From Bacteriovorax sp. MedPE-SWde (GTDB taxonomy: Bacteria; Bdellovibrionota; Bacteriovoracia; Bacteriovoracales; Bacteriovoracaceae), in contig MPCU01000002.1 in NCBI GenBank assembly GCA_001874305.1, positions 124,001-188,000 of the forward strand: a DNA stretch of 64,000 nt, read 5' to 3'. The stretch's first letter is position 1; each line of letters opens with the position of its first letter. The notes beneath the pieces are model-generated. The model worked only from the letters and a program-made list of their open reading frames with translations, had not been told where the DNA came from and made no database searches. Below, piece by piece: positions 3,371 to 50,292 of the stretch. The position numbers and the translations under genes are program-made.

Positions 3371-3517
3371 ATGTCCGAAAAGGTAGTTGATATGAAAACT
3401 ACCGGAATGAAAGTTATATTTTTAATTATTGGACTCTTTATCTTTAAGATATCTGTTGCGGATACTGTAAGATTAAATCAAAATCAAAAGACGTCTTCAG
3501 TTAGAATTGGAAAATAG
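3371..3517 (+). CDS. Possible small exported protein
   Basis: A 48-codon frame, or 41 codons from the internal ATG at 3392, which has AGG about eight bases upstream. It encodes a signal-like hydrophobic segment (VIFLIIGLFIFKISVA) and a short polar tail. It lies after the metalloprotease and its 3' end overlaps the stop of convergent murD by about 20 bases. No family is recognised. Support is only the signal-peptide shape and the position, so it may be spurious. Confidence 0.3.
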   Translation: MSEKVVDMKTTGMKVIFLIIGLFIFKISVADTVRLNQNQKTSSVRIGK

Positions 3518-4831
3518 CCTCGAAAAGAGCTCACCTCTTTCAATATAATTTTTAAATTGATCAAATGATGGAAATGCTGGCGAAAACAGTAGCGTTCCTC
3601 CTTTATCCTTACTCATTTTATCTACTTCGACCTTGAGTTTCTCAAGGGTCTCTACATATTCACAATCATATGTTTTACTAAGTGTTGATAATAGTGCCTG
3701 TCCCGACTCTCCAATAAGAAATACTTTTTCTATATTTTCTTTAAAAGGATCAAGTACTTCTACTCTACTGTCTCCCTCTCCTCTTAGCTGACCACCAAGA
3801 ACTAAGGTAACACGACCTTCATCTTTTACACCGTTTAAAGCTGTTTCTGTCGCTTCCCAGTTAGTACTCTTTGCATCGTTAAAAACTTTTAATGATCTAT
3901 ATTCACCAATGAACTCTAATCGATACTCAACACCACTAAATGTATTTACTGCTGACTGTAGTGCTTTGTGAGATCCACCAAACTTTGTCCACATCTTATA
4001 GACCATATAGAGGTTCTTTAAATTATGTTCACCATAGATCTTTAACTGACTTAGGTCTAAAGTACTTTCAAGCTCTGACTTTATTTGAGAGATGTTTTCA
4101 AATGAAAGCTCTTCATAATCATTAACTTCAGGAGCAGGAAGCCCAAGCTCATCCCAAAGACCGATTGGCCAAAAAGAGAAGTCTCCATCGGACATATTCT
4201 TGAATATTTCTTTTTTAGCGTTAGCGTAGTCACTAAGAAGATTATATCTTTCACCATGGCTAAAAGTTATATTGAGAATTGATGCGACTTTAGGTCTAAA
4301 GTCACGAATCGACTCAAGTTGAAAACTTGAAAGTTCTAAGATAATTCCCCACGCTTGCTCACGGGAACCAGATAATCTCTCATATATATAATCACAAAAT
4401 GGTGTTCCAATATTTCCACCAACAAAGTAAGGCCTTCCTTCATGTTTAAAACACTCTTCAAGAAAACTAACTGTCGTAGTTTTACCATTTGTTCCTGTGA
4501 TTCCCATGACTGGCGCATCAGCGTATTGCCAGGCCAGCTCTATTTCGCACCAGATGGGAGCAGAGATACCTTCAAGTAGAGGTATTTCTCTAGCAATCCC
4601 CGGAGAGAGTATAATAAGGTCTGATGATTTAACCGCCTCAAAAGCGGCCGGATCATCTTGTGAAATAAGCTTATTTTCATCCATATGAGATAGAATTGGA
4701 TTCTTACCCCAAAAACTCTTATCCCCTTGGCTAATAACATGAACATCTTTTTTTAAATGATTTAACAATCTTACAGCAGATAGCCCAGACTTCCCCATTC
4801 CAATAACTGTAATCCTATTATATTTATCCAT
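3497..4831 (-). CDS. murD: UDP-N-acetylmuramoylalanine-D-glutamate ligase
   Basis: ATP-dependent ligase that adds D-glutamate to UDP-MurNAc-L-Ala in the cytoplasm during peptidoglycan synthesis. The N-terminal domain has a Rossmann-like VIGMGKSG loop, the central domain the Mur P-loop GTNGKTTT (about residues 113-120), and the C-terminal domain the usual FNDAKSTN and LFSPAFPSFD segments. A longer frame starts at 4855, but I chose the ATG at 4831 because GGGTGA precedes it at good spacing and the protein then begins normally. It is solitary here, not within an mra/mur cluster, and is divergent from the methyltransferase gene. Confidence 0.95.
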   Translation of the reverse strand: MDKYNRITVIGMGKSGLSAVRLLNHLKKDVHVISQGDKSFWGKNPILSHMDENKLISQDDPAAFEAVKSSDLIILSPGIAREIPLLEGISAPIWCEIELAWQYADAPVMGITGTNGKTTTVSFLEECFKHEGRPYFVGGNIGTPFCDYIYERLSGSREQAWGIILELSSFQLESIRDFRPKVASILNITFSHGERYNLLSDYANAKKEIFKNMSDGDFSFWPIGLWDELGLPAPEVNDYEELSFENISQIKSELESTLDLSQLKIYGEHNLKNLYMVYKMWTKFGGSHKALQSAVNTFSGVEYRLEFIGEYRSLKVFNDAKSTNWEATETALNGVKDEGRVTLVLGGQLRGEGDSRVEVLDPFKENIEKVFLIGESGQALLSTLSKTYDCEYVETLEKLKVEVDKMSKDKGGTLLFSPAFPSFDQFKNYIERGELFSRLFSNSN

Positions 4832-4892
4832 AATATCACCCAAATGTTCATTCAATTTGCATTATTTCTTTAATAAAGATATTAACATTATC

Positions 4893-6532: not shown

Positions 6533-8569
6533 TTATTTAAAACTAAGTTCAATATTTTTAAATCTTCCCTCTCCAATTGAAGAAGAAGTAATTTCTTTAT
6601 CATCTTGGAAATACTGATGAATGATTCTTCTCTCTTTTGCATTAAGAGGCTTTAGTTTTACAGGTGCTTTCGAAGAGATAACTTTCTCTCTCATCTTCTT
6701 TGCAAGATTTCTAAGCTTACCTTCATCAAAGTTAGACTTTGGTTTACCACCTGGTTTTCCATTTCTACTACCAGGCCTTCCACCCTTACCAGCGTTATCT
6801 CTTTGAATAAAAGATTTAACCTGAATTTTAAGAGAGCTTGGAATTTCAATTTTAGAAGCTAGGTAGTCTCTAATAACTTTATCAAGGAACTTTAAGAGTT
6901 CTCCATTATTTGAGAGAAGTGCATCCTGATCCTTCCCACTAAAGCTAACCATAAGACTATCTGGTCTATAAGAAATTTTAATATAGAGATTTAATCCTGC
7001 ATTCTTAAGAGTCTTAATTAAAAATGGTAATAGAATTCTCTTATAGATTGGCTTAACAAAGAATTTATACTTATTCTTTCTAGCACCAAAGAAAATAAAT
7101 CTCTTAGAACCCTTTTTAACAAGGTCATGTCCAAGAAGAACATTATCTTCAATATTTAAGCTCTTCATCGCTGTTTTCTTCGAACTTGGAAGATCGTGTG
7201 TTGAAAGCTCAATATGTTTCGCGGCACTACTATTAGTATGCTCGATACCACTTTTCATTATTAGTTCTTTAAAGCTAGAAATATCAACTGCTGGGATTTC
7301 TTGTCTTCTTGGCTTCTTATCTCTGTCAGCATATTTAGAAGGTCTTACCTTAAGAGTCTTTCTCTCAATGAATGGCTTTCTACAAATATCCTTTGCAAAG
7401 TCCGCTTCAGTGATTTCGATTTTTTCAATTTCATCTTCAACAAGTTTTGTAATTGGATCTAAGTACTCACAGTCCTCATGTGCACAGAAACTAATTGCGT
7501 GACCTTTTTCACCGGCACGACCAGTTCTCCCTATACGGTGAACATAGTTAGCAGCTTCTTGAGGAAGGTCATAGTTAATAACTAGTTGAACATTCTTTAT
7601 ATCGAGACCTCTTGCCGCAACATCAGTACAAACAAGAATAGTCGTCTTCTTTTCTCTAAAGTCTTTAATAAGTTGAGTTCTCTTACCTTGAGCAAGCTTT
7701 CCAGAAATAGGCATTGCCTTGAAGTCCATCATCTTTAACCATTCTGCAACAGTATGCGTTTGCATCTGAGTGTTACAGAAAACAATCGCGTATGGATCTT
7801 CTTCTTTTCTAAGTATATTTACAAGAAGAGGAAACTTTTCTTCTCGTGTAATCATTGCAAGTTTATGATCAATATTCTCTACAAGTAAGCTGTCGACATT
7901 AAGACGTAGCTCTTCAGGCATAGAACCAAATTTATAAGCCGTTCCTAAAACGTCTTGGTTACTAGTTGCTGAAAGCATTACTAGTTGACGATTGTCTTTT
8001 ACTTTACCAAGCAGAAACTCAATATCTTTTTTGAAACCCATATCAAATAGTCTATCGGCTTCATCAAAAACAACACTATTACAGAAGTCGATGAAGACAG
8101 CTTCTTGTTTTACAAGGTCAACAAGACGGCCAGGAGTTGCAACAACTACATGAACACCATTATCAAGCTTCTCTTTTTGTTTTTCAATCGACTCACCACC
8201 GATAACACAGCAAGAGTCTACACCAAGGTCATAACCAATCTTTTCGATAATACTATGAGTTTGTTGTGCCAATTCCCTTGTAGGGCTTAAGATCACATAG
8301 TGTGCTTCTTTTGCATATATTTCATCTGAATCATTATCTCTCATGATTTGTTCAATCATTGGAATAACAAATGCCCCAGTTTTTCCACTACCTGTTTCGG
8401 CCTGTGCAAAAATATCTTTCCCATCTAATATTGGTGCTAGAGTTAGTTCTTGAATTTCAGAAATACTTTCAAATCCAATTTTATTTAATTGCTCTACGAG
8501 TCTTTGGTCGAGTCCAAGCTCGCTAAATTTCTTTGTTGTTTCGATTTTATAATCCTTTAAAAATGTCAT
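6533..8569 (-). CDS. DEAD-box RNA helicase fused to a Jag/KhpB-type KH-R3H module
   Basis: 678 residues. The first 390 are a complete DEAD-box core: AETGSGKT (57-64), PTREL, TPGRL, DEAD (169-172), SAT (200-202), ARGLD and HRIGRTGR (344-351). The remainder is not a simple basic tail. Residues about 485-505 carry the GSKRFIFFGARKNK linker typical of Jag. About 511-590 match a type II KH domain, with its GxxG loop changed to SNNG. After a Gly/Lys/Arg linker, about 617-678 form an R3H domain (KPLNAKERRIIHQ, DDKEITSSSIGEGR). Jag/KhpB is an RNA-binding protein normally encoded alone near yidC. The fusion suggests an RNA helicase targeted by its own KH-R3H arm. It is monocistronic or leads the small exported gene downstream. 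Confidence 0.93.
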   Translation of the reverse strand: MTFLKDYKIETTKKFSELGLDQRLVEQLNKIGFESISEIQELTLAPILDGKDIFAQAETGSGKTGAFVIPMIEQIMRDNDSDEIYAKEAHYVILSPTRELAQQTHSIIEKIGYDLGVDSCCVIGGESIEKQKEKLDNGVHVVVATPGRLVDLVKQEAVFIDFCNSVVFDEADRLFDMGFKKDIEFLLGKVKDNRQLVMLSATSNQDVLGTAYKFGSMPEELRLNVDSLLVENIDHKLAMITREEKFPLLVNILRKEEDPYAIVFCNTQMQTHTVAEWLKMMDFKAMPISGKLAQGKRTQLIKDFREKKTTILVCTDVAARGLDIKNVQLVINYDLPQEAANYVHRIGRTGRAGEKGHAISFCAHEDCEYLDPITKLVEDEIEKIEITEADFAKDICRKPFIERKTLKVRPSKYADRDKKPRRQEIPAVDISSFKELIMKSGIEHTNSSAAKHIELSTHDLPSSKKTAMKSLNIEDNVLLGHDLVKKGSKRFIFFGARKNKYKFFVKPIYKRILLPFLIKTLKNAGLNLYIKISYRPDSLMVSFSGKDQDALLSNNGELLKFLDKVIRDYLASKIEIPSSLKIQVKSFIQRDNAGKGGRPGSRNGKPGGKPKSNFDEGKLRNLAKKMREKVISSKAPVKLKPLNAKERRIIHQYFQDDKEITSSSIGEGRFKNIELSFK

Positions 8570-8808: not shown

Positions 8809-9669
8809 ATGGATTTATTACCACCAAGCAAATATAAGAATATTACATCTTACTTCAAAGACTTTTATACAAAAAATAAAGAGAAGCATTCATACTTTAG
8901 TTATCAGTATTTCTCGAAGGCCACACAATGGCCCAACTCTCTTTTAAACGACATAATAAATGAGAGAAGAAAGTTAACGATCGCACGTATTATACAATTT
9001 TCATCTGCTCTTAAAATGAATTCTAACGATACAGAGTATCTCATTCATTTATTAATGAAGGACTCAAAAGAAGATCATGTTAGAGACTATTATGAAAAGT
9101 CGATTAAGAAGAGCTTCAATGCTGATCATGTTAAAACGCTTGAAGTAGATGATGATGTTTTTGCAGATATTGACTATATCGTTATACACGAGCTTCTTGT
9201 CTGGGCGAAAAAGAAACTTGATCCTCAAGTCGTTACAGATCTTCTAGAGTTAAGCGACAGCATTAATCCAGAGAAAGTAAATGAAGTTTATCAAAAGCTA
9301 GAAGAAATTGGTGCAATAAAATTTCATGGTGATGAAATTGAAGTCCTCGCAGACAATCTCTTTCTTTCACAAAACTCTAATCACTCATTCATCGATATAA
9401 AAAAGTCTTATCTTGAGCAAACGAGAAAGTTTGTAGAAGGTAGCTACCCACCGGGACTTCTAAACTTTGTTCACCTTGAGCTTCCAAATGAGGCCATACC
9501 TGATGTTATCGATAGAATGACTATGTTAAGAAATTGGATAATGGAAACATCCCAAGAAACAAGAGAAAGAAGAAGAGAAGGAGAAGAACTTGAAACTCAA
9601 ATATTTCAAGTTGATCTGAACCTATTTCCTTTATTTAACAAAGAAAATATAAAGAATATAAACAATTAG
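8809..9669 (+). CDS. TIGR02147 family protein (DUF4423-type)
   Basis: The 286-residue cytoplasmic protein has the layout of the TIGR02147 family, which is known from paralogous sets in Fibrobacter and Bdellovibrio relatives. The N-terminal part reads like a helix-turn-helix region (FSKATQWPNSLLNDIINERRKLTIARIIQFSSAL). The middle part is winged-helix-like (LDPQVVTDLLELSD...VNEVYQKLEEIGAIKFHGDEIEVL). The C-terminus is helical and charged. The family is presumed to be regulatory, with no function I can state. It is followed 13 bases later by a secreted carboxypeptidase gene, so the two probably form an operon. Confidence 0.8.
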   Translation: MDLLPPSKYKNITSYFKDFYTKNKEKHSYFSYQYFSKATQWPNSLLNDIINERRKLTIARIIQFSSALKMNSNDTEYLIHLLMKDSKEDHVRDYYEKSIKKSFNADHVKTLEVDDDVFADIDYIVIHELLVWAKKKLDPQVVTDLLELSDSINPEKVNEVYQKLEEIGAIKFHGDEIEVLADNLFLSQNSNHSFIDIKKSYLEQTRKFVEGSYPPGLLNFVHLELPNEAIPDVIDRMTMLRNWIMETSQETRERRREGEELETQIFQVDLNLFPLFNKENIKNINN

Positions 9670-22334: not shown

Positions 22335-23198
22335 TTATAGTTTACCAGCTTTTTTTAACTTCTTAAGAGACTTGATTTTATTTATTTTAAAAACCTTCTC
22401 CCCTTTACCTTTTGCATAACTACTTACATAGCAGAGTTCATCTTCTTTAGTTTCAAAATCATTCTTACCTTGAATGAGAATCCCCTCTACTTCAAGAGTT
22501 TTTAAGTTGAAGACTGGAGAACCAGAGTTTCCACCATAAGTATCAAGGTTAGCTTTAAATGTAAGACCATAAGTATTCTTAACTCTTCCATCATCAGCTG
22601 TTTTCATTGGAAGTCCAACAGGGTGACCAATTACAGCAAGCCTACTTCCTTTTGAAAGTTTCCCCTTTGATCTAAACTTTAAAGGAGCTCGTCCAACAAC
22701 TTCTCTATCAAGACGAATAACTGCAAAGTCTTTCGCGTAACCTAGAAGGTTATATTTTGCTTCTTGCTCAATAATTTCTGCACAAGAATAAACCTGATCC
22801 TGGCTAAATCTCTTACTATTATCATCAAACCCGAATACCCACTGATTTCTCTTACAATCAGACTTTGTCTCCATACAGTGACCAGCTGTCACAAGAATAT
22901 CTTTTCCAACTAGGAAACCTGTACAATCAGAGAGAGAGACTTGATCTTTAAATCTTTCTGACTCACATACATTCATTTTGTAGCTTAGTGATCTCGTTGG
23001 AAACGAATATTGATCGCCATCTTTATAGATATCATATTGCGATACTCTCGCAGCAACAGACTTTGCTAGTATTCTTAGATTTTTGTTTGGGTGTAATCTC
23101 GATTCAACTCTATTATCCTTTCCGTAAATTACCTTATTAATAGCAAACGTATTAACAGAAAGAAGTGTAGTTAAAGCTAATAGAATATTCTTTTTCAT
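22335..23198 (-). CDS. Exported trypsin-like serine protease
   Basis: 287 residues from the ATG at 23198, which has GGGGA at good spacing and starts a proper signal peptide (MKKNILLALTTLLSVNTFA). The mature domain has the S1/V8-type triad marks: GHC with catalytic His (LVTAGHCM), an Asp region (KDFAVIRLD), and GNSGSPVF with the nucleophile Ser. Several cysteines can form disulfides. It is secreted to the periplasm or outside. It is monocistronic with its own terminator. Together with the M10 and M14 enzymes it adds to a set of exported proteases in this window. Confidence 0.9.
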   Translation of the reverse strand: MKKNILLALTTLLSVNTFAINKVIYGKDNRVESRLHPNKNLRILAKSVAARVSQYDIYKDGDQYSFPTRSLSYKMNVCESERFKDQVSLSDCTGFLVGKDILVTAGHCMETKSDCKRNQWVFGFDDNSKRFSQDQVYSCAEIIEQEAKYNLLGYAKDFAVIRLDREVVGRAPLKFRSKGKLSKGSRLAVIGHPVGLPMKTADDGRVKNTYGLTFKANLDTYGGNSGSPVFNLKTLEVEGILIQGKNDFETKEDELCYVSSYAKGKGEKVFKINKIKSLKKLKKAGKL

Positions 23199-47943: not shown

Positions 47944-48092
47944 ATATTATATATTTCTTACTTCCTCTAGCTCTATTACTAGGAGGCATGTTTGTTGCCT
48001 TCTTTATCTGGGCAACAAAGAGTGGTCAATATGATGACCTTGAAACCCCAGCACAAAGAATATTATTTGATGACGATAGGAATATTAAATAG
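47940..48092 (+). CDS. ccoS: cbb3 oxidase assembly protein CcoS
   Basis: 50 residues, one N-terminal membrane segment (FLLPLALLLGGMFVAFFIW) and the family-typical tail SGQYDDLETPAQRILFDDD. It is needed with CcoI for cbb3 oxidase maturation. Overlaps the ccoI stop by four bases and lies 25 bases before ccoNO. Too short for a simple ORF cutoff but unambiguous by motif and position. Confidence 0.93.
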   Translation: MNIIYFLLPLALLLGGMFVAFFIWATKSGQYDDLETPAQRILFDDDRNIK

Positions 48093-48117
48093 TCTCATAA
48101 AAAAGGAAGGGAAGATT

Positions 48118-50292
48118 ATGAGTACAGACTCTACTAACACAGGTCATTTGGAGGAATTCTCTTATAATGACAGAATCACAAAGTGGTTTGTTGGTGCCAC
48201 TATGCTTTGGGGATGCGTTGCTCTACTCTTAGGAGTTATCATTGCATTTCAATTAGCTTATTGGAAGTTCAACCTTGGTCTAGAATGGACAACATTCGGA
48301 CGACTAAGACCACTTCACACCAACGCAGCAATCTTTGCTTTTATTGGTAATGCCATTTTCGCAGGTATTTACTATTCAACGGAAAGATTATGTAAAACAA
48401 GAATGTTTAGCGACACTCTTGGATGGCTCCACTTTTGGGGTTGGCAGCTAATTATTGTTGCAGCAGCAATATCTCTACCTCTTGGTTTAACAACAGGTAA
48501 AGAGTATGCAGAACTTGAATGGCCAATTGATATTTCAATTGCTGTTATTTGGGTAATTTTCGCAATTAACTTTTTCGGAACGTTAGTTAAGAGAAGAGAA
48601 AAGCATATTTATGTGGCACTTTGGTTCTACATTGCTACAATTCTAACAGTTGCAGTACTACACATTGTAAACTCTATTTCACTACCAGTTAGTTTAATGA
48701 AGTCTTACCCTATTTACGCTGGTGTACAAGATGCACTCGTACAATGGTGGTATGGTCACAATGCCGTAGCATTCTTCTTAACAACACCATTCTTAGGTTT
48801 GATGTACTACTTCATTCCAAAAGCTGCGAAGAGACCTGTTTATTCTTATAGACTGTCTATCATTCACTTTTGGTCATTAGTATTTATCTATATCTGGGCC
48901 GGTCCTCACCACCTTCTTTACTCTTCTGTTCCAGACTGGGTACAAACTGTTGGTATGACTTTCTCAATTATTCTTTGGATGCCTTCATGGGGTGGGATGA
49001 TCAATGGTCTTCTAACTTTAAGAGGTGTTTGGGATAAAGTAAGAACAGAGCCAGTACTTAAGTTCATGGCGACAGCTGTTACATTCTACGGTATGGCAAC
49101 ATTTGAAGGTCCACTACTTTCAATCAAGTCAGTTAACTACCTTGGACACTTTACAGACTGGATCGTTGGTCACGTTCATGCCGGAACAATCGGTTGGAAC
49201 TATATGATGACTGCCGGTATGTTATATTTCCTAGTTCCAAAACTTTGGAAAACACACTTATTCTCTAAGAAATTAGCGAACCTTCAATTCTGGACTGCGA
49301 CTATTGGTCTTGTTCTTTACATGATGTCTATGTGGGCAGCAGGTATTACTCAAGGTCTTATGTGGAGAGCAGTAGATGCGAGTGGTCGTCTTGTTTACCC
49401 TAACTTCATTGAAACAGTTGTAAAAATTGTTCCTATGTACTGGGTAAGAGCATTTGGTGGAGTACTAGTACTTCTAGGTTTCTTCATCATGGTTTACAAC
49501 CTTGTTAAAACAATTCAATTTGCTAACAAGAATAATAAAGATCAAGCAGAAGATGTATATGCAGCTCCTCCACTTAGCGCAGCTAAAGAAGAGCACGGTG
49601 CTTCAGCTCACAGAAAGCTTGAAGGTCTACCAATGCTATTCTCTGTTTTAACACTTCTAGCAGTTCTAGTTGGTGGTATTGTAGAAATCGCACCTTCTCT
49701 ACTGTCTGATAAGTTCGTAGAAAAAGCACCACATATTAAGCCATATACTGGTCTTGAACTTGCTGGTCGTGACATCTACATCAAAGAAGGTTGTTACGTT
49801 TGTCACTCTCAACAAGTAAGACCTACACCGTCTGAAAAGCTGAGATATGGTGATCCATCAACTGCAGCAGAATCAGTATACGACCATCCATTCCAGTGGG
49901 GTTCTAGAAGAATTGGACCAGACTTAGCAAGAGTTGGTGGAAAATATAATGATATGTGGCACTTCAGACATATGATTAACCCAAGAGATGTGACTCCAAA
50001 GTCAATCATGCCTAACTACGGTTGGCTAACTAAGAATAAAACAAACTTCAAAGTTATCCAGAAGAAACTAAAAGTTATGAAGGCACTTGGTGTTCCATAT
50101 ACTGACGAACAAATTGCTAACGCTTTCAATGATGCACAAATGCAAGCAGAAAAGATCACTAAAGGTCTAACTGAACATGGTGTACCAATGAAAATGCAAA
50201 GCAAAGAAATCATTCCTCTAATCGCTTATCTACAACGCCTTGGTATGGATTCTGCCAACGCGAAGAAGGCCATTGAAGAAGGACAGGAGTAA
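48118..50292 (+). CDS. ccoNO: Fused cbb3 oxidase subunits I and II (CcoN-CcoO)
   Basis: 724 residues from the ATG at 48118, which has AAGGAAGGGA upstream; a longer frame starts at 47992. Residues about 20-470 are CcoN, with heme ligand H67 (LRPLHTN), copper-site His in YGHNAV and GPHHLLY, and heme ligands in GHVHAG. After a linker and a membrane segment (about 506-525), the CcoO part carries one heme-c site C559-x-x-C562-H563 (GCYVCHSQQ) and a Met ligand candidate in SIMPNYGW. CcoN and CcoO are usually separate genes; the fusion is a known variant in some groups. Confidence 0.95.
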   Translation: MSTDSTNTGHLEEFSYNDRITKWFVGATMLWGCVALLLGVIIAFQLAYWKFNLGLEWTTFGRLRPLHTNAAIFAFIGNAIFAGIYYSTERLCKTRMFSDTLGWLHFWGWQLIIVAAAISLPLGLTTGKEYAELEWPIDISIAVIWVIFAINFFGTLVKRREKHIYVALWFYIATILTVAVLHIVNSISLPVSLMKSYPIYAGVQDALVQWWYGHNAVAFFLTTPFLGLMYYFIPKAAKRPVYSYRLSIIHFWSLVFIYIWAGPHHLLYSSVPDWVQTVGMTFSIILWMPSWGGMINGLLTLRGVWDKVRTEPVLKFMATAVTFYGMATFEGPLLSIKSVNYLGHFTDWIVGHVHAGTIGWNYMMTAGMLYFLVPKLWKTHLFSKKLANLQFWTATIGLVLYMMSMWAAGITQGLMWRAVDASGRLVYPNFIETVVKIVPMYWVRAFGGVLVLLGFFIMVYNLVKTIQFANKNNKDQAEDVYAAPPLSAAKEEHGASAHRKLEGLPMLFSVLTLLAVLVGGIVEIAPSLLSDKFVEKAPHIKPYTGLELAGRDIYIKEGCYVCHSQQVRPTPSEKLRYGDPSTAAESVYDHPFQWGSRRIGPDLARVGGKYNDMWHFRHMINPRDVTPKSIMPNYGWLTKNKTNFKVIQKKLKVMKALGVPYTDEQIANAFNDAQMQAEKITKGLTEHGVPMKMQSKEIIPLIAYLQRLGMDSANAKKAIEEGQE

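Follow-up and report, generated by a model that had tools for sequence, protein, structure and literature searches.

The locus and its helicase half

We analysed a window of 64,000 nucleotides from Bacteriovorax sp. MedPE-SWde (contig MPCU01000002.1, positions 124,001 to 188,000). One ORF on its reverse strand has no internal stop and encodes a DEAD-box helicase followed by a KhpB-type module. Its features, in the order of the protein and with the coordinates of the window, are as follows.

6533..8569 (-): whole ORF, DEAD-box helicase-KhpB fusion, 678 aa; single open frame, conserved across >30 family genomes
7952..8458 (-): RecA-like domain 1 (Pfam DEAD, residues 38-206); AETGSGKT and DEAD intact, invariant in the alignment
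8378..8401 (-): Walker A / motif I AETGSGKT, residues 57-64, from motif positions
8054..8065 (-): motif II DEAD, residues 169-172, from motif positions
7511..7837 (-): RecA-like domain 2 (Pfam Helicase_C, residues 245-353); motif V ARGLD and motif VI HRIGRTGR intact
7223..7330 (-): linker 1, predicted disordered, Lys/Arg-rich, residues 414-449; pLDDT <50 in the full-length model, variable and charged among the family
7052..7219 (-): Jag-N domain, residues ~451-506, which takes in GSKRFIFFGARKNK; supported by the fold, by the profile alignment with the N-terminal part of 3gku and by Pfam Jag_N hits in 12 of 26 relatives
6806..7048 (-): type II KH domain, residues ~508-588; profile and structure matches to 3gku, 9lrg/9lri and the ribosomal S3 KH
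6902..6913 (-): degenerate GxxG loop SNNG, residues 553-556; aligned to GKRG of 3gku
6875..6877 (-): Val565, equivalent of EloR L239, which contacts KhpA; the role of L239 being from PMC6403258
6737..6805 (-): linker 2 (KH to R3H), disordered, Gly/Lys/Arg-rich, residues 589-611; pLDDT <50 at 589-613
6536..6736 (-): R3H domain, residues 612-678 (Pfam 619-673); Pfam, profile and fold
6617..6631 (-): R3H motif RRIIH (R647-x3-H651); R and H invariant across the family

The Pfam search of the ORF gave three matches, namely DEAD (E 1.3e-44), Helicase_C (E 3e-31) and R3H (E 2.3e-13). Helicase motifs Q, I, Ia, Ib, II, III, V and VI were all found (Q-motif region, AETGSGKT, PTRELAQQ, TPGRL, DEAD, SAT, ARGLD and HRIGRTGR), and nearly all of them were invariant in an alignment of 20 fused relatives. 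By its motifs, the helicase half is an intact DEAD-box helicase, and ATPase and unwinding activities are predicted for it. In addition, the ORF scored below the NCBIfam equivalog cut-offs for CshA, RhlE and DbpA (best score 358 bits vs 646 for CshA).

Among the other genes of the window, a DUF4423 gene (8809-9669, +) is the divergent neighbour of the fusion, and it is not adjacent to the fused gene in relatives. A murD-like Mur ligase gene (3497-4855, -) lies near the fusion, outside any visible cell-wall gene cluster. Farther away, a 766-aa ORF (47992-50292, +) contains COX1/CcoN (residues 61-492) and FixO/CcoO (residues 540-753) and represents a fused CcoN-CcoO of a cbb3 oxidase. No conserved gene neighbourhood of the fused gene was found among the family relatives compared.

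The C-terminal module

Searching with the 678-aa sequence alone gave no match to the Pfam KH and Jag_N models, and an NCBIfam single-sequence scan also saw neither. Detection of these two domains required a family profile, which was an alignment of 26 family C-termini. Positions 6-215 of the 216 in this profile matched the crystallised Jag protein of Clostridium symbiosum, 3gku (E 1e-28), and the profile also matched the Thermus thermophilus KhpB (9lrg) with an E value of 2e-15. Furthermore, 12 of the 26 C-termini matched Pfam Jag_N singly. The score of the ORF against the NCBIfam Jag_EloR model (NF041568) was 57.9 bits, below the cut-off of 145.

The AlphaFold model of residues 447-678 (pLDDT 89.5) contained strands and helices in the order of Jag-N, KH-II and R3H. 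When this predicted fold was used in Foldseek, 3gku was the first match (E 9.5e-16), followed by 9lrg/9lri, and the VIA-align Z was 11.9 against both 3gku and 9lrg. The large whole-chain rmsd probably reflects a differing relative placement of the domains. Residues 414-449 and 589-613 came out as disordered tethers when the full-length chain was modelled. The C-terminus is a complete three-domain KhpB/Jag module (Jag-N, type II KH and R3H).

An earlier sequence-only reading of this DNA had proposed a DEAD-box helicase and a KhpB-type module in one chain, and this is borne out by Pfam, the profile, the fold and the single frame; the match of the C-terminus to KhpB that it anticipated is significant both by profile and by structure. 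Its C-terminal layout (Jag linker, KH, R3H) stands for the KH and R3H domains. However, the linker does not stand, and GSKRFIFFGARKNK is instead the end of Jag-N. The degenerate SNNG loop that it placed in a type II KH domain was located at residues 553-556, and the R3H motif is present as R647 and H651.

Conservation differed among the parts of the chain. The first position of GxxG is G in no fused member, and the KH loop is degenerate in all of them; thus, RNA binding by the KH domain is doubtful. All of 32 fused members have a hydrophobic residue (L, I or V) at the position equivalent to L239. Within the genus, the identity of the C-terminus is about 32-37% vs about 62-64% for the helicase core, and the C-terminus is therefore diverging faster.

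Distribution of the fusion

To describe the distribution, 242 genomes of the phylum Bdellovibrionota, each at least 90% complete, were surveyed. A KhpB module was present in 36 genomes of the same family, and in 34 of them it was fused to the helicase in one frame of 649-718 aa; among the more than 30 family genomes compared overall, the fused frame is 649-778 aa long. The two exceptions were G042, which has a standalone protein of 253 aa, and G046, in which the gene is cut by contig ends. We rejected G046 as a separated pair, since its helicase runs to base 22482 of a contig of 22483 bases, and its KhpB begins on a different contig, at base 40. Outside this family, all 109 genomes of the phylum with a KhpB match carry short standalone frames (148-331 aa). 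One copy is present per genome, except for a duplicated copy in G009.

Standalone KhpB was also found in two less complete family genomes, G030 and G031. That of G031 (L139, 5597-6612) is apparently broken into overlapping frames of 195 and 178 aa, owing to a frameshift or an assembly error.

Named relatives bearing the fusion include Bacteriovoracaceae, Halobacteriovoraceae and Halobacteriovorax MAGs. A scan of genome contigs, whose reach is limited to close relatives, returned 13 records, and the titled ones were Bacteriovoracaceae or Halobacteriovoraceae. The domain combination first noticed in a single protein recurs family-wide, and it was unseen in the other sampled families of the phylum.

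An assembly or frameshift artefact was rejected because more than 30 independent genomes have one uninterrupted frame, and chance is excluded by the conservation of the whole architecture in these genomes. The fusion is a genuine trait of the lineage of Bacteriovoracaceae and relatives. Roughly half of the near-complete genomes of the family lack the fusion gene, which indicates that it is dispensable. We found no published description of a helicase-KhpB fusion in the open-access literature searched, in agreement with the sequence-only reading, which knew of no such characterised protein.

Origin of the fusion

In the outgroups, the gene order is rnpA-yidD-yidC-jag-trmE-mnmG. In the genome of the fusion, yidC and trmE abut, and the normal jag that was sought beside yidC is absent; no second R3H domain was found in this genome beyond that of the ORF. 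The same closed slot was seen in every one of the 16 family relatives whose yidC-trmE pair could be scored; there, the gap is 3-50 nt and holds no jag match, whereas the gap is 582 and 728 nt in two outgroups, with jag inside. The slot is closed in the fusion carriers and also in relatives without any KhpB. These results are most simply read as a single event of relocation and fusion close to the base of the family, with later losses.

The result of phylogenetic analysis of the helicases showed that the fused ones formed one clade (100/98), separate from the six other DEAD-box proteins of the fusion's own genome that were placed in the tree. The sister of this clade (100/99) was an RhlE-like helicase of 557-612 aa, which is found phylum-wide in other families. 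The fused helicase clade has a single origin. In addition, the orthologous helicases of the outgroups have a long Arg/Gly-rich tail with a conserved short amphipathic end, and the KhpB module sits in place of this tail.

In the tree of the KhpB module, the outgroup standalone proteins formed one clade (96/96). The standalone protein of G030 was nested inside the fused group, beside the fused G074 (99/93), which suggests that its helicase half was lost. The base of this tree and the placement of G031 and G042 lack resolution, and the latter two may represent the standalone state before fusion. The outgroup standalone proteins (L132-L137) are about 190-200 aa long, with no recognisable Jag-N and a partly degenerate GxxG. 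Probably, Jag-N was lost in them or was kept only in the fused family.

We also looked for the helicase half in family genomes that have no KhpB module. A helicase match above 40% identity was found in 0 of 27 such genomes, and family orthologues scored 49-64%; thus, the two halves are lost together, and their coupling is near-universal. KhpB stands alone, with no helicase half detected, in three family genomes (G030, G031 and G042), and so the halves can act apart. These three are the only separations seen, and in all of them it is the KhpB part that survives.

KhpA and Hfq

The genome of the fusion encodes a KhpA of 87 aa with an intact loop (VIGKQG), and its RTI sequence corresponds to R59-T60-I61. 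The pneumococcal KhpA forms a heterodimer with EloR, in which I61 of KhpA and L239 of EloR mediate binding to the EloR KH domain (PMC6403258). KhpB of other bacteria binds sRNAs, tRNAs and UTRs, KhpA co-precipitates with it, and KhpB may play a greater part in the absence of Hfq and ProQ (PMC10117718).

A search with the Pfam model PF17209 did not find Hfq in the genome of the fusion. This genome (G000) has KhpA but no Hfq match, which bears on sRNA handling in the lineage. Of 77 family genomes, 74 have KhpA. We tested whether KhpA was lost along with the fusion and rejected this idea, for KhpA is retained even where a family genome lacks KhpB; its presence is thus not specific evidence for a partnership.

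Possible function

We propose that the fusion is a helicase that is targeted by the relocated KhpB arm, probably paired with KhpA, and that remodels structured RNAs; we give this reading a probability of about 0.58. The arm would bind RNA mainly via R3H, in which R-x3-H is invariant, and would recruit KhpA through the third helix of KH. The pairing is proposed because of the hydrophobic L239-equivalent position and the KhpA with its GKQG loop and RTI. The intact GxxG loop of KhpA would substitute for the degenerate loop of the arm, and R3H would be a second RNA contact beside the KH loop of KhpA. By analogy, the RNA held by the arm would be structured UTRs, sRNAs or tRNA precursors, and the flexibly tethered helicase core would bind ATP and unwind the adjacent duplex locally. 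The covalent chain would in this way bring unwinding activity to KhpB-type RNA targets, as the sequence-only reading had suggested, and the fusion would act as an ATP-driven RNA chaperone or remodeller that replaces the job of free KhpB in the family.

Several other explanations should be considered. The KhpB module might anchor RNA nonspecifically, having taken over from the basic RG-rich tail of the ancestral RhlE-like helicase; the protein would then have an ordinary helicase role (ribosome assembly or unwinding of cold-shock mRNAs), and the original KhpB function would have been lost. The location of the module where the orthologues carry the Arg/Gly-rich tail with its amphipathic end agrees with this, as do the degenerate GxxG, the quickly diverging C-terminus and the many relatives without any KhpB. 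However, Jag-N, which is not known as an RNA-binding domain, is retained, the KhpA-contact position stays hydrophobic, and the invariance of the R3H residues points to a specific role that was kept. Furthermore, no tested family genome has the helicase half without the module, whereas the module occurs without the helicase in three. We therefore regard such an anchor as possible but rather unlikely.

The fusion might also be a regulator of envelope synthesis and cell elongation whose helicase modulates the mRNAs concerned. The three EloR domains and KhpA are all present, the EloR/KhpA complex controls cell elongation in pneumococcus (PMC6403258), and the murD-like gene lies 1.7 kb from the fusion. 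However, the neighbourhood is unconserved in the family and the proximity of murD is probably a coincidence, the gene is absent from many relatives that presumably elongate, and the pneumococcal wiring may not transfer. A role of this kind seems improbable. Finally, it is very improbable that the fusion is only an expression arrangement from which free KhpB is also made by internal initiation or linker proteolysis, because, although linker 1 is disordered and an in-frame ATG lies at residue 438 behind a weak purine-rich stretch, Met438 is unconserved in relatives, a second promoter or start is without support, and more than 30 genomes hold the uninterrupted frame.

KhpB is widespread in bacteria, and the fusion offers one protein on which KhpB targeting and RNA unwinding could both be assayed. 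KhpB welded to a helicase, with its ancestral locus emptied, gives a strong natural hint at the class of enzyme partner of KhpB. A broader idea, which we offer tentatively and hold to be unlikely, is that KhpA/KhpB ordinarily has a DEAD-box helicase as its partner on the same RNAs, and that this partnership became a single protein here, where Hfq was not found, into an ATP-powered RNA matchmaker. Were this true, the fusion would reveal a general functional link between a helicase and KhpA/KhpB, a broadly conserved, little-understood pair of RNA-binding proteins.

Relation to known proteins

The fusion has Jag-N, KH-II and R3H in the identical order to KhpB/Jag/EloR proteins (S. pneumoniae EloR, E. 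faecalis KhpB, 3gku and T. thermophilus 9lrg/9lri), and in both cases KhpA is encoded elsewhere in the genome. However, KhpB/Jag/EloR is a separate small protein with a canonical GxxG, and its gene lies between yidC and trmE/mnmE, whereas here the module is covalently placed behind a DEAD-box helicase in a chain of 678 aa, its KH loop is SNNG, and the gene is outside that locus. The heterodimer with KhpA known for KhpB/Jag/EloR is predicted here from the KhpA gene and the hydrophobic contact position.

The two-RecA core with all motifs is common to the fusion, the RhlE/CshA-type helicases and the 557-612-aa orthologue of other families. At the C-terminus, the orthologues have a basic, Arg/Gly-rich tail that closes with a short amphipathic stretch, where the fusion has a KhpB module. 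In the DEAD-box helicases DbpA/YxiN and Hera, targeting comes from a folded C-terminal domain that binds RNA and is tethered to the helicase core; this domain is RRM-like, whereas the fusion carries Jag-N/KH/R3H. The eukaryotic IGHMBP2/SMUBP-2 and YTHDC2 have a helicase and R3H in a single chain, and the R3H of SMUBP-2 (1msz) gave a marginal match to the C-terminal family profile. However, these proteins are SF1 or DExH helicases without KH/Jag-N, and their architecture is unrelated to that of the fusion. The fusion is a variant of two known kinds, the DEAD-box helicases with RNA-binding C-termini and KhpB, rather than a new category.
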